The notes beneath the pieces were generated by a model. The model did not search any database, had not been told where the DNA came from, and saw nothing but the letters and a program-made list of their open reading frames with translations. From a virus, in IMG/VR virus record IMGVR_UViG_3300028743_000031, positions 1 to 21,808 of that record: a DNA stretch of 21,808 nt, one strand, 5' to 3'. Shown one piece after another: positions 803-20,193 of this stretch. The position numbers were made by a program, and so were the translations under genes. The first letter of the stretch is position 1; each line of letters begins with the position of its first letter.

Positions 803-2308
803 ATGACGGATGAGGTTAAACTCCCACGGGTGTCTATGGTGCTCTACACGGATGGCGGGTGTCGCCAAGGCGCCGGTGGGTGGGGGATTCACGGCTACAC
901 CTACTTAATAGATGACCCTGACAACAAAAAGAAAAAGAAACCGGCCTTAAACGTCCCCAGCACGATTGGGTATATCGACAAGTCTGACACCGAAATCGAG
1001 CAGCGCGAGGTGGTCAGACCGCTTGAGACCTTACAATCGTTTGGGGGCATAGCACCGGAAACCACCAACAACGTGGCTGAATTGACGGCCACGATCAACG
1101 GACTGACGCTTGCCTTGCAGCACAACACCCAAGACCTTTATATACGCTCGGACTCCGAATACGTCTGTAAAGGCCTTAACCAATATATGCCGGGTTGGCT
1201 TAAAAACAAGTGGCGTAAGTCCGATGGCAACGAAGTGGCCAACAAAGGGTTGTGGGTTGCCCTTAATACCGCGGTCGAAAAAGTCAAGGCAGCCAACGTC
1301 GGGTTTGAGATCCGCTGGATCAAAGCCCACGATGGCTACAAAGGGAATATGTATGCCGACTATATGGCCACCCGTGGGGTCTTTTTAGCCAAGCAAGGCA
1401 ACGTTGAGCCGGTACACGAAGTCCTTGAGGGTGGGGGACTGGACAAATACGACGCCGCGCGTCCGGTGCTCTTTGCCCACCCACGCTGGTATTTTAACTT
1501 AACCGACGGGGTGCTGACCGAACCCAACGCCTCGGGCCTTTATGAGTATTGCTTTGGCTCGCCGTCCAAAACGGATGTGGATGAAGAGTACTTGGGAAAA
1601 GCGATCGCAGATAAGGCTTACTCGGTGGTGTGGTTGCGGGCACCCGAGCCGGCGCTGTCGACCCTTTATAACGCCACCAAGCGCTTAGTGCAAGACTATT
1701 TTGGTAACGTGATGATTGGTCGCATGGATCATATCTATAATCCCTTTAACCACAAAGACTTGGTGGATTACCAAGGGGGGTTGCTGGCCCGTGCACCGAT
1801 GCGGGTGAATAAGATCGTCAATTGTACTGAAGCGGTGTTAGTAGAAGAGCGTAATCCCCCGGGAATCTCGTATCGTGCCGTGGAGTCTTTACGCCAACTC
1901 GGGGGCATCTTAAGCGATTTTTATCGCCAAGAGGTGAGTGCCCAAACGGCGTTCTTTGAAGTCACTGATGCGTTGTATCACACCGTGGAGACGAAAAAGG
2001 CGTCTAAGTTGGCTTTAGTCGATTCGATCAAACAAATCACTAAAGCTGTTAAGTTTACGGTACCCTGTGCGGTGTTAGGTCGCGCGCATAGCGTGGACCT
2101 CACGTGTACGTTGGGGCTTTCCCTGCCACCTCGCAACGTGTTGTCCGGTATTGCCGGGTTAAATCCCAAAGTCTACGTGTTTACCTTGAAAGAATCCGAT
2201 ATCGCCTTCCACTACGGCACCATCGTGGTCTGCGATGAAGGGTACCTAATTATGGCCAACGTGTACGCTGATCTGCGCATTCTCTCCAAAAAAGAGCTTA
2301 CGCAGTGA
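803..2308 (+). CDS. RNase H-domain protein with a long C-terminal extension
   Basis: The first ~195 of 501 residues form an RNase HI domain, which cuts the RNA strand of RNA:DNA hybrids. All core acidic residues are visible: D17 in YTDGG, E93 in NVAELTA, D117 in RSDSEYV and D186 in MYADYMA, plus H176 in the flexible loop. A 40-residue insert with a run of five Lys (about 38-80) separates the first two motifs. Residues ~200-501 are not part of the RNase H fold and match nothing I recognise; typical RNase HI is about 155 residues. GAGGAATTTACG before the ATG gives a good ribosome binding site. Likely roles are primer removal or clearing R-loops during phage replication. From memory, phiKZ has an RNase H-like gene (gp155) near its uvsX-like gene, matching this layout. 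Confidence 0.9.
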   Translation: MTDEVKLPRVSMVLYTDGGCRQGAGGWGIHGYTYLIDDPDNKKKKKPALNVPSTIGYIDKSDTEIEQREVVRPLETLQSFGGIAPETTNNVAELTATINGLTLALQHNTQDLYIRSDSEYVCKGLNQYMPGWLKNKWRKSDGNEVANKGLWVALNTAVEKVKAANVGFEIRWIKAHDGYKGNMYADYMATRGVFLAKQGNVEPVHEVLEGGGLDKYDAARPVLFAHPRWYFNLTDGVLTEPNASGLYEYCFGSPSKTDVDEEYLGKAIADKAYSVVWLRAPEPALSTLYNATKRLVQDYFGNVMIGRMDHIYNPFNHKDLVDYQGGLLARAPMRVNKIVNCTEAVLVEERNPPGISYRAVESLRQLGGILSDFYRQEVSAQTAFFEVTDALYHTVETKKASKLALVDSIKQITKAVKFTVPCAVLGRAHSVDLTCTLGLSLPPRNVLSGIAGLNPKVYVFTLKESDIAFHYGTIVVCDEGYLIMANVYADLRILSKKELTQ

Positions 2309-3539: not shown

Positions 3540-3623
3540 AGTCCGCTCCAGGATAAAGTAACAATTTACATAAGATGACTTTATATGAACTTCTTTTTTT
3601 TTATTTCAACAAGGACTCTCGCA
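3540..3623. promoter_or_regulatory. Divergent promoter region with a T-tract
   Basis: These 84 bases lie between a minus-strand start at 3539 and a plus-strand start at 3624. The stretch AAAGTAACAATTTACATAAG near 3555 and TTTATATGAAC near 3581 are AT-rich and suitable for promoter melting. A nearly pure T-run follows at 3591-3600. The AAGGAC ribosome binding site at about 3611 serves the plus-strand gene. No standard sigma70 promoter is clear. Confidence 0.4.
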
Positions 3624-5024
3624 ATGATTCCATTTGGTGATGTCATCGCAGCATCAGCGCCGATCCGTCCCTTTCCGAACCTTGGAGCAGGGTTTGACAT
3701 ACCCACCGGGGCGTATCGCTTTGGTAAACACGGTGAATCGATTTTAAACGGCGGCTTAGCCCCCTTTACCTCGATCGTTGGCAAAGGCAACACCTTTAAG
3801 ACCGCGATCGCTTTATTCTTTATGGGCCGGGTGTTGCAGCGCTATCTGCACTCCAACGGCTTGCACTACGACACCGAGTGCACGATGTCTTCCGAACGTA
3901 TCTTGCAATTTGCCACCAATCCTTCGATGGAAGGTGCCGATCCCTTGGAGTGGTTAAACGACGGTCGTGTGTATTTGTCAGATGACTCCAAGGTCAAAGG
4001 CAACGAATGGTTTAAAAAGACCGTACAAGACTATTCCAACAGCAAAGCCGGCAACAAGCAAGAGATGGGAACCCTGCCCTTTATTGACACCAAAGGCCAA
4101 TCGATTCGCTACCTTTACCCGACGGTCAACATCGGCGATTCGATCTCAGAGATGAAGTTCTCAGATTTAGAAAAGAACTTCTCCAAGATGGAGATCGGCC
4201 AAGGCGAGATGCAACCGGAGGCCATGCGGGTATCGAACGCCAAACGCATGCTGATTGAAAAAGTGCAAGGCTTTGCCAACAACGGTGGGTTATACGTCAT
4301 TATGACCGCGCACTTGGGTAAAGAGATCTCGATGGACGGTAAACCCCAAGAGAAGAAAACCACCTTTATGAAACAAGGTGAAAAGATCTCCAAGGTCCCG
4401 GGCCAGATCCTCTCTTTACCCAACAACTCGTGGGAGATCTCCACGGGCACGGTACTGAAGAACAAAACCACCAAGGTGTGGGAATACCCCAAAGAAGGGA
4501 TCCCAGATGAAGATACCGAAGGCAACCCGGATTTGATCACCTTGATTTGCCGTAATATCCGGGGCAAGTCGGGTCCGTCGGGAGCCCCCTGGGAAATCGT
4601 GATGTCCCAATCCGAAGGGCTGTTGGCCGGCTTAACGGAGTTTCACCATATCCGCTCGATGGGGGGCTACGGCTTAGGGGGTAACGATCGCAACTATTGG
4701 GTGGAGCTTGCCCCACACCACAAACTCCAACGCACCACCGTGCGCGGGAAGATCGATAACAACGCCGATTTACGCCGGGCGCTGGAGATCACCATGGAGA
4801 TGTGCCAAATGCGCATGCTATGGTTTACGCGCGATCCTAAGTACAATATGACCCCACTCGAGCTGCGTGAAGGGCTAGAGAAGAAAGGGTATAAGTGGGA
4901 TGTGTTGTTAAACACCCGGGGGTATTGGACCTATGACGAAGATAACCACCCGTTGCCGTTTCTCAGTACGATGGATCTTTTACGGATGTATCATGACGAG
5001 TACCGCCCTTATTGGCTCAAGTAA
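3624..5024 (+). CDS. RecA/UvsX-like ATPase
   Basis: The start is placed at the ATG at 3624 because CAAGGAC precedes it at a proper distance; an upstream in-frame ATG at 3585 would add 13 residues, mostly Phe, and lacks a site. The 466-residue product has a nucleotide-binding loop GKGNTFKT at residues 53-60, preceded by a hydrophobic strand. A second buried strand (LYVIMTAHLGKEIS, about residues 216-229) looks like the RecA/DnaB sensor strand ending in a polar residue. This fits a RecA-fold recombinase acting in phage strand exchange and recombination-dependent replication. From memory phiKZ-like phages carry such a UvsX-like gene near RNase H. The P-loop is unusual: Phe replaces the Gly before the Lys of GxxxxGKT. 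A DnaB- or KaiC-type ATPase is the main alternative. Confidence 0.7.
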   Translation: MIPFGDVIAASAPIRPFPNLGAGFDIPTGAYRFGKHGESILNGGLAPFTSIVGKGNTFKTAIALFFMGRVLQRYLHSNGLHYDTECTMSSERILQFATNPSMEGADPLEWLNDGRVYLSDDSKVKGNEWFKKTVQDYSNSKAGNKQEMGTLPFIDTKGQSIRYLYPTVNIGDSISEMKFSDLEKNFSKMEIGQGEMQPEAMRVSNAKRMLIEKVQGFANNGGLYVIMTAHLGKEISMDGKPQEKKTTFMKQGEKISKVPGQILSLPNNSWEISTGTVLKNKTTKVWEYPKEGIPDEDTEGNPDLITLICRNIRGKSGPSGAPWEIVMSQSEGLLAGLTEFHHIRSMGGYGLGGNDRNYWVELAPHHKLQRTTVRGKIDNNADLRRALEITMEMCQMRMLWFTRDPKYNMTPLELREGLEKKGYKWDVLLNTRGYWTYDEDNHPLPFLSTMDLLRMYHDEYRPYWLK

Positions 5025-5097: not shown

Positions 5098-5517
5098 ATG
5101 ATCAATAAAGAAGTCCGTATCGTGGTGGCCTCCATGCGGGGGTTTACCGATATGGTACGCACCAAACTGGCCGTGGATGCCCTGCTCCAAACCATCTACT
5201 TGCTTAACGAGGGGATTGACGACACCGACCCCGATTATGTCACCCCGGAAAAGATCGTGTTTATCTCCAACGGCGAACAAGGTACCATCGCCCATCAACT
5301 CCCAGAGCTCTTGCAGGCCTATCACCTGGAACACGTTGACGTGCCCGTCGATTGGGCCACCGGTAAAGCGGCCTTTTATGAGAACTGTGTGGCGTTGGGT
5401 TCGCAAGCCACCTACGCCATTATCTTTTGGGATCACGAAGACCAAGGGATGAACGCCTTGTATAAAAGTTGCTTGCAAGCGGGGGCACCGGTTCGCAGTT
5501 ATAACGTGCACATCTAA
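5098..5517 (+). CDS. Stand-alone SLOG/DUF2493-like Rossmann-fold protein
   Basis: 139 residues. The N-terminal strand RIVVASMRGF (7-16) stands where DUF2493 proteins have their AGSR-type loop. A second strand ends in ISNGEQG (about 56-62), and VPVDWATGKAAFYEN aligns with the family pattern vPAdW..GkaAG..RN. YAIIFWDHEDQGMNALYKSC then matches the alI.FWdg.S.GT..mi..a pattern. SLOG domains bind nucleotide-derived ligands, including NAD+/ADP-ribose relatives; ThsA of the Thoeris system uses one as a sensor. The key Gly residues of the first loop are poorly conserved, so this may bind a ligand without catalysis. It resembles the C-terminal domain of the next gene, which starts 12 bases downstream, and is probably a diverged paralogue expressed with it. 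Confidence 0.65.
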   Translation: MINKEVRIVVASMRGFTDMVRTKLAVDALLQTIYLLNEGIDDTDPDYVTPEKIVFISNGEQGTIAHQLPELLQAYHLEHVDVPVDWATGKAAFYENCVALGSQATYAIIFWDHEDQGMNALYKSCLQAGAPVRSYNVHI

Positions 5518-5529
5518 GGGGGTTCTTTT

Positions 5530-6825
5530 ATGACGATCGTCAGCGAAGGGTATACCAACGTCTTTAAAGCGGCTACCAGCCACGTGGTGTGCACGGTGAA
5601 CTGTCAGGGACACATGGGCCGGGGTGTGGCGCTCTACCTGCGTAAGGCCGTCCCAGGGCTTTATGATGCCTATCGGGCCAAGGTCGCCCGAGGCGAACAA
5701 ACGGTCAATACGCTGTGGGTCTATCCGGGCACCCCCAACATATTGATCTTCCCGACCAAAGACCGGACGTGGGAGCCCTCAAAGATTGAGTGGATCAAAG
5801 ACAACCTTCAGTACCTGCGCGAGCACTACCAAGACCTGGGGATCACGTCCTTGGCCCTGACGCCCTTAGGGTGTAAAAACGGGGAACTGGCGTGGCCTGA
5901 GGTTCGCGCCCTTATTTATGCCGCGCTAGATGACATCCCCTTGCCGGTTACCCTGTGCTTAGGAGTTAAAAAGATGGACGAGATCGAACCGTTAGACGAT
6001 GGTACGGAGCATCTGAATGTTTATTCGAAGGGCAAAACCTGGTTAGGGAAAGCCTTATCGAATATGTCTGCCTACGGCTTTACCCACCCCACGTACGGCG
6101 AGTTTGCGTCGTTAGAGGGATATTGGTATTGGTTGGCCACGGGGAAGTGCCACGAGGCTCTGAGGAGCTTAACGGGCTATAAGGCCAAAGAGGTGGGCAA
6201 GTCCTTTCCCCTGGTAGAATACCGGGAGTTCAAACAAGACTTCTTAGACGGGATGAAGCTGCGCCTGGTGCAAAACAAAGTGTTGGGTGATGGGGTACGG
6301 GAATCACGCTTACCCTTCTTGCACTATTTTGAGTACGGCGGGAAGGTGGTTGATCGCACGGAAAAGCACCGTTGGCAACTGGACTTTTATGACGAATGGC
6401 GCACCAACACGGTCGTCACCGAAAAACCGGTGATTCTGATTGCAGGTTCTCGAACGGCAACAGAATATGACGCCTTTGAAGCAGGGGTGTTTGGGGCACT
6501 AAAGAAGTGGAACTTTGAAGCGTGTTATCCCTACGACATCACCATCTTAAGTGGCTTGGCCTGGAAGGGGCCGGATGATCTGGCCATCACCTTGTGCCGT
6601 AAGAACGGCTTTTTACTGCAAGGGATTCCGGCGCTGTGGAAATTGCAAGGCAAACCGGCAGGGATGATCCGTAACGGGGTAATGGCCCAAAAAGCCACTC
6701 ACGCGTTGATCTTTTGGGACGGGGTATCACCCGGTACCAAAGAGATGATCAAGCTGGTAAAAGGCAAAATCCCGCTGTATTTGTGGATCCACGGGGTGGC
6801 CGATCCGCAGTGGTACCCGGTGTAG
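5530..6825 (+). CDS. Macrodomain-NADAR-SLOG fusion protein
   Basis: 431 residues in three parts. Residues 1-145 are a macrodomain of the DarG/ADP-ribose-phosphatase type: VNCQGHMGRGVAL (23-35), FPTKDRTWEPSKIEWI (74-89) and LTPLGCKNGELAW (110-122) match its ligand loops. K77 sits in the FPTK motif whose Lys is, as I recall, needed by DarG. Residues ~161-290 look like NADAR (YbiA-like): VYSKGKTWLGKALSN, then SLEGYWYW with the conserved Glu at 196, then basic residues in GYKAKEVGK. Residues 301-431 are a SLOG/DUF2493 domain: LIAGSRT (303-309), SGLAWKGPD (341-349), IPALWKLQGKPAGMIRN (366-382) and ALIFWDGVSPGTKEMI. Macrodomains and NADAR proteins include enzymes that remove ADP-ribose from DNA bases or proteins; SLOG binds related ligands. 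I infer a role in reversing ADP-ribosylation or sensing or destroying an ADP-ribose signal. A good GGGGG-type ribosome binding site precedes the ATG. Confidence 0.8.
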   Translation: MTIVSEGYTNVFKAATSHVVCTVNCQGHMGRGVALYLRKAVPGLYDAYRAKVARGEQTVNTLWVYPGTPNILIFPTKDRTWEPSKIEWIKDNLQYLREHYQDLGITSLALTPLGCKNGELAWPEVRALIYAALDDIPLPVTLCLGVKKMDEIEPLDDGTEHLNVYSKGKTWLGKALSNMSAYGFTHPTYGEFASLEGYWYWLATGKCHEALRSLTGYKAKEVGKSFPLVEYREFKQDFLDGMKLRLVQNKVLGDGVRESRLPFLHYFEYGGKVVDRTEKHRWQLDFYDEWRTNTVVTEKPVILIAGSRTATEYDAFEAGVFGALKKWNFEACYPYDITILSGLAWKGPDDLAITLCRKNGFLLQGIPALWKLQGKPAGMIRNGVMAQKATHALIFWDGVSPGTKEMIKLVKGKIPLYLWIHGVADPQWYPV

Positions 6826-6862: not shown

Positions 6863-7534
6863 ATGAATATCGCCCGTCAAGAAACCCAAGACTACATCTT
6901 AAAGTGCATCGACGACCTGCTCCCAGGGGGGCGTAACAAGGCCATCTATCAAGACTTCTTTGCCCGCACCACCGATCAACAGTTCGACGCGATGATGACC
7001 CGCTTTGAGGAAGATCACGAGTACTTGCCCTTTTACCACCCCAACTTCACGGGCACGGTCATTGACGTGGAAAACGTGATCAAGCTGATCACCCGGGAAG
7101 GCGGTAAGTTGATGGAGCGGGTGTGGGACATCGATCCGGAAACCGGGGAGGAGTTCTTAACCCCCTTAGAATACCCGATCTTGATCCTGCCTTTGCGTAT
7201 CCAGCAGCAAAAGCTCTCAAAGAAGATGTCGATCCCCAAAGACAACTCACATATCGACGATCTCACCAACCAACCGACTACCGAGTCCAAGGGTGCGTCG
7301 ATCTCGTACCCTGAAGTCCAGATCATCTACGCGATGGGTGGGGAGAAGATCCTCGAAGAAACCCTCAAAGTGCGTGGCGGTGATGATAAAGCCTTTCGCG
7401 ACTACAACAACGAGCTGATTGCCAACGGTGGCGTCACGATCTCCAGTATCTCCTCTGACAAGACCAAAGTGAAGTCCACCAAGACCGTGGCCACAATCTT
7501 AAAGACCGGGATGCACTTAGACAACAATTTGTAA
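6863..7534 (+). CDS. RNA polymerase beta subunit C-terminal-like protein
   Basis: 223 residues that follow, almost end to end, the pattern of the last ~200 residues of bacterial RpoB. [15 protein letters not shown] (88-101) aligns with E. coli RLYDGRTGEQFERP, and the next strand PILILPLRI with [20 protein letters not shown] (134-144) aligns with VTQQPLGGKAQ, and [20 protein letters not shown] (149-168) with [38 protein letters not shown] aligns with MLTVKSDDVNGRTKMYKN, and the last helix (about 204-214) with the final helix of RpoB. In RpoB this region packs against the clamp and beta'. The catalytic lysines lie upstream in RpoB and are absent here, so alone it cannot be a polymerase. It may be a separately encoded piece of the phage polymerase, a reduced counterpart of phiKZ gp149, or a regulator. 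AGGAG precedes the ATG. Confidence 0.65.
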   Translation: [223 protein letters not shown]

Positions 7535-13590: not shown

Positions 13591-16500
13591 TTAGTACTGA
13601 CGTTTAAAAGACACCGAAGGGCCGTCTGTACCGTTCGCCGCGGGCGCAGGTGTCGCACCTGGGGTCACGGCACGCCCGCTTTGGGCAACTCCGCCTTGAC
13701 CACCGGCGATCGTTTTCAAGTAGGCCAGTTGTTGTGACATCAGATCAACCATCTGCGCGGTGTTTTGCGCAATACGGTCTTGTGATGAGGCCGACTGCGC
13801 CAAGACCGCGGTGTGGTTCGGTGCCGCGGGTGTTGCCACGGGTGTCTGCTGAGGTTGCATACTCGTGACGTTCATCGAAGGTGGCGGCACCGCAGCACGA
13901 GACGCCGGTGCGGCACCGACGGTCTGGGTGTTGTCCTTGGTCGCTTGCGCTTCGATAGCCGAGGCCGTCGAGTCCTTGGCACCGGGTGTAACAGAACCGG
14001 CGTTAACGGCTGCGGCCACCGAAGGCCCGGTGGGGGCTGCCAAGTTAGGCGGGGTTGTGCTACCCGGGGCGTTAGCCGGACCAGCGGTCAGTTGAGCCGC
14101 GGTCTTCACCCCTGATAACGCAGGATTCGATACCCCTCCTCCACTTTGCGCGGCACTTTGCGCCATCGTGGTTGCCATACTGGTACCCGATGGATTGGCG
14201 CTGGCCTCCCCATCCCCATCCTTACCGGTGATGATCCCGTCGTATTTGCCCCCGTCCATGATCTGGGAGTATTGTTGGAATAACGTGGCCCGCTCTTGCA
14301 ACCCGTTAGATCCCCCGTTGATCGTTTTGGTAACGGCGGTGACGTCCCCCTTCTTTGCCGCGTCTTCGAGTGCCCCGTGGCTTTTCCAAAACCACAAGGC
14401 GGTTTTTGCCGCCACATCGTTATCAGACGACACCTTATCCGGATCGTTGACCAAATCCATCCCCAGCGCCTTCCCGGCCGCAGAGTAGTTGTCTTTGCCC
14501 GTTAATTGGATAAAGCCCCGGCCCCGGTACTTCCACCCATCCCCTGGGGCGTTGTTGCCCATCCTGCCGCCATAGATCGCATTAGCCACGGCCACCGGTC
14601 CGGCTGAGGCCACCGCTTGGGCCGATTCCAAAGTAGGAAACCGATTGGGAAAGAGTCGCATCAAGGTATCGGCTTTATAGCGCAAGTTTTCCTCAAGGGT
14701 TGAGAAACCCCCGGATTCTTCATGTAGTTGGGCCAACAACATCGCGAGTTCTTTCTTATCGGTGATCCCGCCTTTCACGGCTTCGCGGATCATCAGCCGC
14801 ACGCCTTCCTCGGTACCCGGTCCCATCTTAAGCGGCGTCACCTTGCCGGTCATGTCCAGTTGCGGGGCACTCCCCGAGGCCACACCGCCTGCTGCGCCGC
14901 CGTAGGCCTGCTCCATTTGCCCGGTTTGCGGGTTAAAGACCGTTTGCTGGGTGTTGGAGGTGTAGACCGATCCGTCGGCATTGCGCACTTGATTAGAGAC
15001 CATCTGTCCGGTCTTTTCATCTTTGTGCCACTGGTTGGCCGTCGTGCCTTCCTTAGCTTGTACCACCCCACCGGCGACCTTCTCTGCCGCGTACTGGGCG
15101 ACTTTCACGTTGGCTTTTAAATTGGCAATGTGGTTGGCCAAAATAGAGGCGTCAGCGTTTAAGGTGCCCATGTTCCAAGGCGAGGCGGTGGTTTTCCAAA
15201 TGGATTGTGCGCTATCACGCCCCCACGACTGAGCCGCTGACATCGCGTTCACCAGTTGAAGCTGGGTTTCCGGTGGCAGCCGTTTAAAGTTAAGGGTGGG
15301 GTTCTTTTCACCGGTTTGGTTAAAAGCGATATTGACAAACGAGAGATACACCGGTAAGAAGCGTTTGGTGAACCACTCATCCCAGGCTTTAAACGAGTAC
15401 TCAGACGAAGGAGACAACCCAAAGAGCGGCGCGGTCAAGTGATAGATATCCGAAGACAGTCCATCAAAGACCACCTTGCTACCATTGAACTTGATCTTGT
15501 TGGCCATGACCAGCTCAAGTTGCAAGAGCGTCGAGACCTTGTCGATGTCCAACGACGGCAACCCGTAGATCTTCATTCTCGCGGCGGTAAAGTCGTCCAT
15601 GGCTTCACCGGGTTTGGGTAACAACCCACCCAGCACGTCGCCCACCGACACCACCGTGCGATCACCGGTAAACCACGAGGTCTCCTTATGGCCTTCCAAG
15701 TTCATCCCGGCAATCTTCCCCCCGGTGGGGTTAATCGCTTTAAGGATATCACTGGAGACTTCGCCTTTCTCCGTGGTGGCAGCAGAGCCCGTGGTGTACG
15801 TTGAGGTTGACTTGGTGGCACTCGACATCTTCTGGGCTTTCTCACGAAGCTGCCCTACCACGTCTTGTACCAACGCCTCGGTGGTCTTTTGATCGGTGGC
15901 GATCAGATCGGGGAAGATCTTGGCGGTCACCGTGTACGGGTTGTCGTTGTTCGGATCAAATTGCTGCGTGCGTTTGGCAATCTCGTATTTCGCTGCCGCA
16001 TCCGGGGAAGCGTCCAAGTCGAGAAAGGCCTGGTTAGGCAGCACCTGTTTGGAGACCGCTTTGTGGGTCAGATACACCGGTTTAAAGCGGTGTAAGAACC
16101 AGCCCGCAAAGTTTTGCACTTGATCACGATCGTTAGGATCGTCGACAAAGTCCGAGGCCAACTTGGAGATCGGGGCCGACGGATCTAAAAACGCATGACC
16201 ATCATCGGTGACCTTGACGTAAGGCTCGAGGGCAGCTTCCAGTTTAAAGATCTTGCCGGTGTGATCGGAATTGTTATCGGGAATGCCGTATTGGCGCAAA
16301 CGCATCTGTTGTAACAACCCCGGCGAAGCAATCCACTTGTAAAGCGCCCCTCCGATGGCCGAACCACCTATCCCCCCTATCACACCCCCCACGACTCCCC
16401 CGATCAGTGTCCCCACCACGGGGACTACCGAGCCGATTGCGGCACCCATTGCCGCCCCACCTAAGATCCCACCAACACCGCCCCCGACGTCTTCAGCGAC

Positions 16501-19500
16501 GCCTTCGTAGTTGCCCGCTCGGTAATCAGAGATCGCTTCATAGCCGGCCATTGCCGCCGTGGCAATCCCCCCGAGCTTCAAACCGCGGGTCACGTTACCT
16601 TTAAGCCCTCTGGCAACAAAAGTACCGGTGTTTTTCGCCGAGGTCCCCAAAGCCCACTTGCCCACCGAGCCGACCCCTTTGGCCGTGGCTTTAAGACCGC
16701 GACCGACCAGGCCTGCGCCCCGACGTAACAACCCTTTCTTAGCCACCGTACCTGCTCCCCCGGCAGCGGTTGCCGCCCCCTTGCCTTTGAGCACAGACTC
16801 CGCACCGGCTGTGGCCACATCTTCGGCCATATCCGCTGCTGCCCCCACGGCTTTCTTGCCTAGAATGAGCTTGCCAAGCGACACCAACCAACCCATTTTT
16901 AAGAACTTCGCTAACGATTCGATAATGCCAAACTTGGTAAATTTGGCAACAAATTCACCGATGCCGGCAACCGCCCCCGCGACCAGTCCTAACAACCCTT
17001 TACCGCTGTCTTTCTCTTCGGGTTTTTTGTCGGTCGGTTCCGCGCCCTTTTCCGCTTTCTTTTTGTTGCGCCGTCTTAAGAGGTCAAATACCCCGTTCAC
17101 CCGATCTGGCTTTTCGCTGTCGTCTTCATCGTCCTTTTTGGCCCGACGAGACTTCAGCACACCCCACAACACTTTTGAGGTTTTCCACCCCAGTGCTAAG
17201 GGCAACAAGGTGGTCCACTTCATCACGGTTAAAGCCGGTTTGTTAAAATTGGGCAACAGATGCATAAACTTGCTTAACGGATTGTGCTTAAGCCTGGAGT
17301 CCATGCGTTTGGTCAACCCTTTTAACCAACCCTGGCGTTCGGTGGTGGAGTTGGCCATCACGGCAGGATCACCGGTCATGTTCGCAATCGTCGCATCCTT
17401 GGTGGCCACGATCTGATCACGTGCTGAGGCCATAATACCGATCATCTCTTTGACCAGGTCATTGTTCTCGGTTTGCAGTTGTAAGCGTGCTTGGGCTTCG
17501 GTGAGTTCGGCTTTCGCCGTAGATGCCAACTCTGCCCCCGTAGCGCCTACCCTACTTCCCAAACCCTGGGCCTTTTGAGTCACCTCCTTAACATCGTCAC
17601 CGGCCACGTTCCGCGCTTTGTTAGCAAACCCGCTCAGTTGATCTTTTACCCCGTCAACCGAAAGATTGCTTAAGAACCCTTTGGCTTTCCCGCCTAAAGC
17701 CCCCAACCGGTCTTTCACGCCTTGGGCCTTGGTCTGTTGACCAAATTGTTGTGAGAGCACCGACACGATCTGTTCGCCTTGGGCCAGGGCTTGTTTGATC
17801 TGGGGGTTCTCTTGGGCGACGTCGCGGTATTCCAAGAGCTGGGCGTTGATCTCAGCGATAAGCTGCTTGCCATTGGTTTTCGCGGTGTCGAGGGTGCGTT
17901 CCACTTCCCCCTCGTCGGTGGCGGTTTGTAAGCGCCGTTGCACGGTTTCGATGATGTCTTGACCGCGATCCAGTGCTTCCTCGTAATAGCGTTTTAGCGC
18001 GTGATACCCGGCCGACGCCTTGATCTTGGATTTGGCCCCGGTTAAGCGATCGCGGATCTGTTGGCTGACTTTTTGTGACCCAGCCGCCAACGGGTTCTCC
18101 ACGTCTGATAACGACGATTCGTCGCCTTCTTGTTCGTAGTTGGGGTTTTGCACGTGCTTTTGTAAGTTCTTCCAATACAAGTCGTGGTTAAAGACTTCTT
18201 GGCCGTTCTTACGTTGGATAATCCCCATCTCTTTCAGTGCGTTACGATGACCGCCATTGGCCAGTACGTTGGTGGATTCTTCGACGTTGGGCATGTACCG
18301 TTGTTGTGAAGCAAAGGAACCCGCCAGGTTATTACGTAACGACGCCAGCTCTTTATCATCGCCGATGTCGTATTGCCCTTGCAACTTAGCCACCCCTTTG
18401 GCTTCGCGGGTTTTAAACCGTTGATGCATAAAGGCGGTGACCTCTTTGGCAATGTCCGGATCGGTCCCTTCCCAGGCTTTATCACCAATGAGCATGTTGA
18501 TACTAAAGGCGTCCCCCCGATCAGCCCCCTTGGCCAGCTTCATGGCAACCGCTACGCGTGCGGCCTTAGACAGCTCGTTATCCGGGTCGATCTCGGACAC
18601 GATCGAGTTAAACCCTTGGGCGGCGCCTTTGAACTCGGACTTGTTAAACACGGCGTTTCGCAAATCCGACTGGTTTCGTGCTTTAGAGGTAAACGCCCCC
18701 TGGGTGTGGTTGTATTCCACATCCTGCACGTCCTTTTTGCCGGTGGAGATCTTGGTCAGCTCGGTAAGCTGCTTGGTTAAAAGCCCAGGGATGATCTCAA
18801 TGAGCGAACGGCGTGAGATCACATCCCACTGCGCCGGGTTGGTCAGATCCTTGATACCAGGCGTTGACACCTTGGTGCGATCACCCTTTTGCGAGGGTGC
18901 GTTCCACATCAAGTTGTTTAACATCGGGTTCAAGGTTTTCTTTTGCAGCCGGCTGTACCACTTGTTGTTGGGGTCCGTGGGGTCGTAGTACTCGTCCAAC
19001 GATTCACCGCCTCGCAGATACGAATTCAACAACCCAGGCGCATTCCCGCCGAGATACGCAGCGTTAGACCCGGCAGCGGCCAACTTGGAGTTCTTTTGCA
19101 ACCGCGGCTGGATATACTTCTTGGCGAGCTCCGGGGCAAAGGAGCCCAAGACTTGTCCGGCCAGTTTCCCGTATTCACGCGAGCCCGATTGGCGCATCAT
19201 CTTTTGCATCTGGGCGGCTTGTACTAGCATCCGCATCCCAGGTGCCGCGCGAGACGCTTGATCGCCCAGTTGTTCGGACTTGTCCGAGATCGAGTCAAAG
19301 ATCGTATCGGCTAAGGTGTTGCCGTACTTAGAAACCTTGCCTTTGATCCCGCCCATCAACTGGCCTTTGACCTTTCCTTTTGCCCGATCAGAGGACGCCT
19401 TTTCAAAATCTGACATCGACGAGTTGGTGATCAACGCGCTAAAGCCGTCCAGGGCGCGTTTGTAAAACCGCTCGTGCAGTTTGGCTACCCCAATTTGCAA

Positions 19501-20193
19501 GCGATAAGAGCGATACTGGAGCTCTAAGGACTTGCGCTGGTAGGTTGCCGTGACTTGTTCGTTAAAGCCGACGTTGCGGGCTTCTAGGCGGTGTATGCCC
19601 TGTAAGAACGCCAACTGGGTGGTCATCGTGGCGTTTTGCTTAACGGCGATGGTGGCGTTTTGGGTGAGCACTTGTTTTTGCAACGACGACGCCATCTTGG
19701 CACTGGACAACGTGCCTTGTTCTAAGGCCAACAAAAGGTCGCTGGTCTTGGCATCGACGTCGTTGGCTTCGGCGTCTTCTGACGACTCGCTTTCGTAGAC
19801 CTCTTCTTTATTACTTGCCCACGCCTCGATTCCCTTTAGCACCGCATCCGGGGCAATCCCCCCGTAGGCGGCTGCCACGTCCAGGGCAGCGTCTTTGAGA
19901 TCGGCTACGCCGTCTTTGGTATTTTTCTTGACTTTATCGTATAGATCCCCCGCAAAGTCTTCGACGGATGATTCTATATCGAGCACCGGGCCAAACGACT
20001 TTGGCAAGAGGTTGCGAACGATGTTGCGAATGGCGGATTTCGAGATCACTTCGCCTTTCGCCCCTTCCCAAAGCCCGGCGGAGAACTCTTTAATCTTCTC
20101 TTTGGTGGTGGTGGGTTTTTTGTCATCGAAGTCAAAATCAAAATTCACGTCGATATCAGAAAAGTCGTCAAAATCAAGTTTAATATCTGACAT
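13591..20193 (-). CDS. Giant virion protein with GH19 muralytic domain (phiKZ gp181-like)
   Basis: 2200 residues, the largest product here. The N-terminus is very acidic with alternating Asp and Phe (NFDFDFDDKK). Residues ~60-1000 are mostly charged helix with Gln-rich coiled-coil parts. Residues ~1060-1290 contain hydrophobic segments and a Gly-zipper (about 1235-1285: GAAMGAAIGSVVPVVGTLIG). Residues ~1795-1976 are a GH19 chitinase-like endolysin domain: HEESGG at 1824-1829, EENLRY (1834-1839) with the likely second acid, the hallmark YRGRGFIQLTGKDNY, and TKTINGGSNGLQER. GH19 enzymes cut beta-1,4 bonds in chitin or peptidoglycan. The last 200 residues are Ala/Pro-rich and disordered. The likely job is local cell-wall digestion during DNA injection, from the tail or inner virion. 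phiKZ gp181, of similar size, is described as a virion-associated muralytic protein. AAGGTAAC precedes the ATG. Confidence 0.85.
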   Translation of the reverse strand: MSDIKLDFDDFSDIDVNFDFDFDDKKPTTTKEKIKEFSAGLWEGAKGEVISKSAIRNIVRNLLPKSFGPVLDIESSVEDFAGDLYDKVKKNTKDGVADLKDAALDVAAAYGGIAPDAVLKGIEAWASNKEEVYESESSEDAEANDVDAKTSDLLLALEQGTLSSAKMASSLQKQVLTQNATIAVKQNATMTTQLAFLQGIHRLEARNVGFNEQVTATYQRKSLELQYRSYRLQIGVAKLHERFYKRALDGFSALITNSSMSDFEKASSDRAKGKVKGQLMGGIKGKVSKYGNTLADTIFDSISDKSEQLGDQASRAAPGMRMLVQAAQMQKMMRQSGSREYGKLAGQVLGSFAPELAKKYIQPRLQKNSKLAAAGSNAAYLGGNAPGLLNSYLRGGESLDEYYDPTDPNNKWYSRLQKKTLNPMLNNLMWNAPSQKGDRTKVSTPGIKDLTNPAQWDVISRRSLIEIIPGLLTKQLTELTKISTGKKDVQDVEYNHTQGAFTSKARNQSDLRNAVFNKSEFKGAAQGFNSIVSEIDPDNELSKAARVAVAMKLAKGADRGDAFSINMLIGDKAWEGTDPDIAKEVTAFMHQRFKTREAKGVAKLQGQYDIGDDKELASLRNNLAGSFASQQRYMPNVEESTNVLANGGHRNALKEMGIIQRKNGQEVFNHDLYWKNLQKHVQNPNYEQEGDESSLSDVENPLAAGSQKVSQQIRDRLTGAKSKIKASAGYHALKRYYEEALDRGQDIIETVQRRLQTATDEGEVERTLDTAKTNGKQLIAEINAQLLEYRDVAQENPQIKQALAQGEQIVSVLSQQFGQQTKAQGVKDRLGALGGKAKGFLSNLSVDGVKDQLSGFANKARNVAGDDVKEVTQKAQGLGSRVGATGAELASTAKAELTEAQARLQLQTENNDLVKEMIGIMASARDQIVATKDATIANMTGDPAVMANSTTERQGWLKGLTKRMDSRLKHNPLSKFMHLLPNFNKPALTVMKWTTLLPLALGWKTSKVLWGVLKSRRAKKDDEDDSEKPDRVNGVFDLLRRRNKKKAEKGAEPTDKKPEEKDSGKGLLGLVAGAVAGIGEFVAKFTKFGIIESLAKFLKMGWLVSLGKLILGKKAVGAAADMAEDVATAGAESVLKGKGAATAAGGAGTVAKKGLLRRGAGLVGRGLKATAKGVGSVGKWALGTSAKNTGTFVARGLKGNVTRGLKLGGIATAAMAGYEAISDYRAGNYEGVAEDVGGGVGGILGGAAMGAAIGSVVPVVGTLIGGVVGGVIGGIGGSAIGGALYKWIASPGLLQQMRLRQYGIPDNNSDHTGKIFKLEAALEPYVKVTDDGHAFLDPSAPISKLASDFVDDPNDRDQVQNFAGWFLHRFKPVYLTHKAVSKQVLPNQAFLDLDASPDAAAKYEIAKRTQQFDPNNDNPYTVTAKIFPDLIATDQKTTEALVQDVVGQLREKAQKMSSATKSTSTYTTGSAATTEKGEVSSDILKAINPTGGKIAGMNLEGHKETSWFTGDRTVVSVGDVLGGLLPKPGEAMDDFTAARMKIYGLPSLDIDKVSTLLQLELVMANKIKFNGSKVVFDGLSSDIYHLTAPLFGLSPSSEYSFKAWDEWFTKRFLPVYLSFVNIAFNQTGEKNPTLNFKRLPPETQLQLVNAMSAAQSWGRDSAQSIWKTTASPWNMGTLNADASILANHIANLKANVKVAQYAAEKVAGGVVQAKEGTTANQWHKDEKTGQMVSNQVRNADGSVYTSNTQQTVFNPQTGQMEQAYGGAAGGVASGSAPQLDMTGKVTPLKMGPGTEEGVRLMIREAVKGGITDKKELAMLLAQLHEESGGFSTLEENLRYKADTLMRLFPNRFPTLESAQAVASAGPVAVANAIYGGRMGNNAPGDGWKYRGRGFIQLTGKDNYSAAGKALGMDLVNDPDKVSSDNDVAAKTALWFWKSHGALEDAAKKGDVTAVTKTINGGSNGLQERATLFQQYSQIMDGGKYDGIITGKDGDGEASANPSGTSMATTMAQSAAQSGGGVSNPALSGVKTAAQLTAGPANAPGSTTPPNLAAPTGPSVAAAVNAGSVTPGAKDSTASAIEAQATKDNTQTVGAAPASRAAVPPPSMNVTSMQPQQTPVATPAAPNHTAVLAQSASSQDRIAQNTAQMVDLMSQQLAYLKTIAGGQGGVAQSGRAVTPGATPAPAANGTDGPSVSFKRQY

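Follow-up and report, generated by a model that had tools for sequence, protein, structure and literature searches.

The locus described here raises the question of why a phage would join a macrodomain, a NADAR domain and a SLOG domain in a single polypeptide, and on what substrate such a protein would act. The gene occupies positions 5530-6825 of a 21.8 kb virus record fragment (IMG/VR record IMGVR_UViG_3300028743_000031; the whole analysed stretch of 21,808 nucleotides is termed the window). An earlier note, made from the sequence alone, had read its 431-residue product as three domains in this order and had proposed that it acts as a counter-defence factor directed at ADP-ribose (ADPr). The domain order is borne out by sequence matches for the macrodomain, by fold for the NADAR domain and by the family profiles of homologues for the SLOG domain. 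We tentatively favour the view that the protein, an orphan resembling an antitoxin, removes ADPr from nucleic acid in nucleus-forming phages. The finding is real and interesting; the activity is predicted from sequence. The features of the gene are as follows.

5530-6825, plus strand: gene for the macro-NADAR-SLOG protein (431 amino acids, ATG start, no internal stop)
5530-5964, plus strand: DarG-type macrodomain (residues 1-145), with N24, R31 and K77 at the places of N22, K29 and the catalytic K80 of TaqDarG, and K116 at the place of G119
5986-6405, plus strand: phage-type NADAR domain (residues 153-292), with E196 at the catalytic position, the phage-type H265, and W282; A203 stands seven residues after the Glu (E+7), and the nearest basic residue is K206
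6415-6825, plus strand: YAcAr/DUF2493 SLOG domain (residues 296-431), with the motifs AGSR, SGxAxxGPD, GKxAGxxRN and WDGxSxGT intact and M406 at the place of the LOG catalytic Glu

The fused gene is conserved

The start codon at 5530 has the strongest ribosome-binding site among the 16 main genes of the window, and all five motifs quoted in the earlier note are present in the protein (TVNCQGHMGRG from residue 22, FPTKDRTW from 74, SLEGYWYW at 194-201, LIAGSRT at 303-309 and GKPAGMIRN from 374). Profiles place the macrodomain at residues 10-141, the NADAR domain at 153-291 and the SLOG domain at 301-418. An identical fused frame, at about 50% identity, occurs in other phages and in metagenomes. 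Among fused-clade pairs with enough substitutions, the ratio of nonsynonymous to synonymous substitution rates (dN/dS) is 0.03-0.15 for every computable domain, the NADAR domain being saturated in most pairs; purifying selection acts on the fused protein. Because isolates and other contigs carry the same fusion and dN/dS is low, a chance open reading frame (ORF) and an assembly fusion are both ruled out.

The relatives used here came from domain alignments, a scan of IMG/VR with the single whole-protein sequence having returned none. The whole-protein model has a predicted local distance difference test score (pLDDT) of 87.6 and a predicted template modelling score of 0.60, and the mutual packing of the three domains is therefore uncertain. 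A large alignment that put distant macrodomains on the SLOG region was left out of the modelling.

A macrodomain of the DarG type

By sequence, the N-terminal domain is certainly a macrodomain. It matches Pfam Macro (E 7e-5), PADLOC DarG (9e-35) and NCBIfam DarG (9e-32), it finds DarG in the PDB with a single sequence (1e-20) or a profile (3e-33), and its first Foldseek match is DarG structure 5m3e (6e-12). The NCBIfam match (NF048014) scores 110.7 bits, under the curated cut-off of 250, and covers about profile positions 7-141 of 338. Since the match is limited to these N-terminal positions, the DarT-binding C-terminal half of DarG is absent. The DarG macrodomain by itself suffices as an antitoxin, and mutation of N22, K29 or K80 lowers or abolishes the activity of TaqDarG (PMC5179494).

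A divergent phage NADAR family

Pfam NADAR (PF08719) gave zero matches for the second domain and for the ten phage proteins tried, and a PDB sequence search with NADAR profiles returned nothing; fold comparison alone decided the assignment. The best 50 matches listed for the full-length model against the PDB were all macrodomain-like, so the NADAR part was modelled separately. An AlphaFold2 model built from 27 sequences reached a pLDDT of 97.3, and it matched YbiA (2b3w, probability 1.00), the P. nicotianae NADAR (8bau, 1.00) and the G. lovleyi NADAR (8bat, 0.95), the next match falling to 0.03. On this model, the YbiA/NADAR fold of residues ~153-292 is confirmed.

The profile of this family is collinear with T4 gp30.3 and E. 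coli YbiA. Conservation is high at E196 (39/42 sequences), at the phage-type His of the last strand, represented by H265 (35/42), and at the Trp (40/42). When the window domain was used as a tblastn query, 538 phage records matched. These results identify a divergent phage NADAR family that Pfam misses and that PHROGs lists as of unknown function.

Two further observations concern the distribution of the family. In cyanophage Pam2, Xanthomonas phage LucasX and metagenome phages (loci L212, L008, L018, L020 and L030) its genes lie side by side in pairs, and the catalytic Glu is often degenerate in one of the two. A single bacterial genome contig, from Paraburkholderia adhaesiva (L216), was found to carry the family and is possibly a prophage or phage contig.

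A SLOG domain with a putative binding role

Pfam YAcAr (PF10686) matches the window SLOG domain alone only weakly (E 0.005; 17.1 bits, under the cut-off of 28.2) and matches 26 of the 42 aligned sequences, the best at 1e-18. The family profiles of its homologues place the C-terminal domain with the YAcAr/DUF2493 SLOG proteins. The catalytic Glu of LOG enzymes sits in a PGGxGTxxE motif. The window sequence reads GTKEM, with M406 at the Glu position, and methionine is found there in 70 of 83 family members. We rejected LOG-type enzyme activity for this domain because the catalytic Glu is absent, and the replacement makes a binding role likelier than LOG chemistry.

PDB sequence searches with SLOG profiles produced noise or weak DprA matches, with no match to ThsA or Tad. 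The proposal that this domain binds an ADPr signal, as SLOG domains do in Thoeris, found no confirmation: the domain falls in the YAcAr/DUF2493 family, it has no link to ThsA by sequence, and a homologue resides inside the phage nucleus (see below). Most of the expected ligand-site residues of the protein are kept.

A second SLOG gene adjoins the fusion.

5098-5517, plus strand: second, diverged SLOG protein, SLOG1 (139 amino acids), directly 5′ of the macro gene in annotated relatives

The ligand motifs of SLOG1 are broken (SxMR, NGEQG, ENC) where those of the neighbouring SLOG domain are intact, and SLOG1 may be an inactive partner.

A homologue resides in the phage nucleus

Residues 153-428 of the window protein are 52% identical over 278 amino acids to gp153 of phage RAY, an Agricanvirus. 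When expressed in a published localisation study, RAY gp153 co-localises with phage DNA, as does the UvsX protein gp150 (PMC10299810). Four other fusions in the same study remained in the cytoplasm, and this speaks against the tag alone as the cause (PMC10299810). That study classes gp153 with recombination, places it outside the Chimalliviridae core genome and makes no mention of the macro homologue gp152 (PMC10299810). In phages with the fused gene, the macrodomain would travel with NADAR-SLOG.

We rejected the identification of RAY gp153 as 'DprA', as its N-terminal half is NADAR and its SLOG half matches YAcAr. A published nuclear protein is hence re-read as NADAR-SLOG. Its nuclear location favours action on nucleic acid over the removal of signals from the cytosol.

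Fused, split, duplicated and NADAR-less forms

We applied the domain profiles to all fetched loci and read these gene by gene, which yielded a series of natural forms. The search for the same architecture in other phages, suggested in the earlier note, found it in two Erwinia isolates and four IMG/VR contigs: the fused macro-NADAR-SLOG gene is present in the window, in pEa_SNUABM_37 and in the four contigs, and SNUABM_48 gives the same single-piece match. Agricanvirus phages carry macro and NADAR-SLOG in two genes. In Salmonella phage SA002 (L005 6004-7880) the NADAR region is tandemly duplicated, its copies 96% identical, and the ORFs encode macro-NADAR and NADAR-SLOG. Proteus phage 10 (L006 3998-4828) has the macrodomain joined straight to SLOG without NADAR, and no other NADAR of this family was found in its genome. 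An additional 115-amino-acid ORF separates macro from NADAR-SLOG in AH06 (L003 3456-3803), and a similar-looking junction insert is seen in an IMG/VR relative (L139).

In a tree built from five neighbour proteins the window groups with Agricanvirus (support 85), so that a fused ancestor is the simpler assumption. The simplest account would then take a single fission, a single duplication and a single loss of NADAR; two independent fusions are the alternative.

The junction of macro and NADAR in the window holds one further feature.

5961-5976, plus strand: possible internal start (AGGAG and in-frame ATG, codon 149) at the macro/NADAR junction; speculative

The AGGAG lies eight bases 5′ of the ATG at 5974, and initiation there may give a separate 283-amino-acid NADAR-SLOG protein resembling RAY gp153. 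An equally good ribosome site precedes 18 of 128 in-frame internal ATGs, so the junction start may be a chance occurrence; the ATG is missing from the other fused phages.

Genomic neighbourhood

The neighbouring genes that bear on function are listed here.

803-2308, plus strand: RNase H family protein, a conserved neighbour
3585-5024, plus strand: UvsX/RecA-like recombinase, homologue of RAY gp150
6863-7534, plus strand: RNA polymerase beta-subunit fragment (virion RNA polymerase beta subunit 2 in RAY), a conserved downstream neighbour

The order in the window is RNase H, a small gene, a minus-strand gene, UvsX, the SLOG gene, macro-NADAR-SLOG and the RNA polymerase beta fragment, followed by more shared genes. 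It matches the order in the Erwinia Agricanvirus phages, pEa_SNUABM_37, Salmonella phage SA002 and Proteus phage 10, whose genomes are all 223-294 kb. From this synteny the window probably derives from a jumbo phage, in agreement with the context first proposed for it. Chimallin is encoded by every complete relative searched, and for this reason the window phage is very probably nucleus-forming.

No DarT gene was found in the five complete relatives searched, and general family scans showed no DarT among the gene families of the window. We therefore rejected a phage-borne toxin-antitoxin pair; the protein is an orphan and not the partner of a toxin of its own. As background only, DarT is present in 24 of 369 host genomes of a class-wide sample.

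Elsewhere in the window, positions 13591-20193 hold a gene of 2200 amino acids with PHROG matches to tail-fibre and endolysin (chitinase-like) families, a very large tail-associated lysin.

Function of the fused protein

The kinship with DarG, the catalytic residues, the lack of DarT in five relatives, the recombination neighbourhood and the nuclear location together point to a nucleic-acid de-ADP-ribosylase. The domains, folds, residues, synteny, missing partner toxin in relatives and purifying selection were established here, and the location of the split homologue is published. We infer from them the catalysis, the substrates, the SLOG ligand and the benefit against DarT. The macrodomain would use K77 to hydrolyse base-linked ADPr of the thymidine (DarT2) type, and the NADAR domain would hydrolyse guanine-linked ADPr of the DarT1/ScARP type using E196 and H265. 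The YAcAr SLOG domain would bind a nucleotide or single-stranded nucleic acid and would either regulate the enzyme or place it on its substrate. The protein would strip phage DNA, and possibly RNA, of ADPr attached by host toxins, alongside the UvsX recombination machinery.

Several observations weigh against this scheme. K116 occupies the place of TaqDarG G119, where the G119E change reduces activity (PMC5179494). The phosphate-binding E+7 lysine (K95 in C7, K50 in P. nicotianae) is absent, with A203 in its place, and K95 is essential in the E. coli C7 NADAR (PMC11543638); Lys or Arg is found at E+7 in 11 of 42 relatives and anywhere from E+7 to E+12 in 33 of 42. T4 gp30.3, a phage NADAR that has been tested, hydrolysed guanine-linked ADPr in vitro and did not rescue cells from DarT1 (PMC11125620). 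The location of gp153 was seen with a plasmid-expressed GFPmut1 fusion (PMC10299810), and phiKZ imports GFPmut1 unaided (PMC12908238). Finally, the phage nucleus keeps out host proteins that attack DNA, which may put the DNA inside beyond the reach of DarT.

The earlier note is supported in part. Its reading of the protein as a counter-defence factor, orphan and antitoxin-like, is judged right. Its claim that two kinds of DNA ADP-ribosylation are reversed is weaker: it draws on family precedent, gp30.3 gave no rescue from DarT1, and the K95 equivalent is not at the matching place. Bacteria split the thymidine and guanine chemistries between DarG2 and DarG1. That one polypeptide repairs both thymidine- and guanine-ADP-ribosylated DNA after delivery into the phage nucleus beside UvsX, with SLOG as a part that may be ligand-controlled or DNA-targeting, strikes us as rather unlikely.

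The main rival to a nucleic-acid de-ADP-ribosylase, somewhat unlikely in our estimate, is that macro, NADAR and SLOG degrade or sequester soluble ADPr derivatives (variants of cyclic ADPr, ADPr-1′′-phosphate) from host TIR/SIR2-type defences. This is the published prediction for phage Macro/NADAR/SLOG proteins (PMC9503650, PMC7824862), and it accords with the general binding of ADPr among Macro domains, with the intact SLOG family motifs of the window protein and with the adjoining second SLOG gene. However, the split homologue is found with DNA in the phage nucleus and not in the cytosol, the macrodomain is of the DNA-directed DarG type, the SLOG profiles found no ThsA or Tad in the PDB, and every NADAR assayed in the cited studies removes ADPr from guanine (PMC11543638, PMC11833690, PMC11125620).

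The protein might instead serve the phage's own recombination or NAD/ADPr metabolism, with SLOG as a DprA-like binder of single strands or nucleotides and the other domains clearing ADPr by-products. The UvsX, RNase H and RNA polymerase neighbours, a locus order kept in distant relatives, the published recombination class of gp153 (PMC10299810) and weak DprA matches in the SLOG family (PF02481, 12/42) agree with such housekeeping, which we nonetheless consider improbable. NADAR, at least, can be dispensed with, since Proteus phage 10 does without it and the Chimalliviridae core genome does not include gp153, and none of the window genes that could be identified belongs to NAD salvage. Very improbable, in turn, is a role confined to RNA, in which the protein shields phage mRNA or tRNA from RNA-targeting ADP-ribosyltransferase toxins, for example from CmdT-type mRNA ADP-ribosylation. 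NADARs do take ADPr off guanosine in RNA (PMC11833690), ADP-ribosylation of mRNA does serve as a defence against phages (PMC11618068), and phage mRNA exits the nucleus and is thus exposed; yet the homologue is nuclear rather than cytoplasmic, and the nearest macrodomain is the DNA-directed DarG.

Were one polypeptide to repair both chemistries inside the nucleus, nucleus-forming phages would encounter DNA ADP-ribosylation in spite of the protein shell and would bring a DNA de-ADP-ribosylation repair station of their own. With the natural series of forms it can be tested directly whether such phages depend on removing ADPr from DNA, and why this would take place inside the nucleus.

Comparison with known systems

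The earlier note knew no description of this three-domain order as a system. As a class it is not new: papers of 2021-2022 describe viral fusions of SLOG with Macro and/or NADAR and assign them to counter-defence (PMC7824862, PMC9503650), and the exact order may be given in a figure there. As far as our searches show, the new elements are the demonstration by fold of a NADAR family that escapes Pfam, the series of forms and the re-identification of RAY gp153.

The closest relatives are phage proteins. Gene 156 of pEa_SNUABM_37/48, a hypothetical protein, has the same fused order and 51% identity over its full length, but it belongs to another branch of the lineage, is unannotated and lacks the junction ATG. 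RAY gp152 ('phosphatase') and gp153 ('DprA-like'), like those of other Agricanvirus phages, are orthologous macro and NADAR-SLOG proteins in the same gene order; in contrast to the window they are split in two genes, and they were published as DprA/recombination with NADAR unrecognised.

DarG (T. aquaticus 5m31/5m3e, M. tuberculosis 5m3i) shares with the N-terminal domain its fold, 36% identity and the catalytic Lys and Asn. The window protein differs in lacking the DarT-binding C-terminal half and a toxin gene, in its loop (TKDxTW; TKKHW in DarG) and in having K116 for G119. The NADAR superfamily (YbiA 2b3w, T4 gp30.3, E. coli C7 DarG1, P. nicotianae NADAR 8bau) shares the fold, the Glu at the catalytic position and the phage-type His, whereas the window domain escapes PF08719 and lacks the E+7 lysine. 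AdfN is a phage anti-DarT NADAR that is not known to carry macro or SLOG domains. The phage anti-DarT factor AdfB (ICP1 gp145; PMC11481870) is likewise an orphan phage protein directed at DarTG, but AdfB binds DarT. The fusions of Iyer et al. (2022) and of the 2021 jumbo phage survey belong to the same class of domain combinations and carry the same counter-defence idea. Those papers favour soluble ADPr targets, and to them this locus adds the exact order, a series of gene structures and nuclear localisation.
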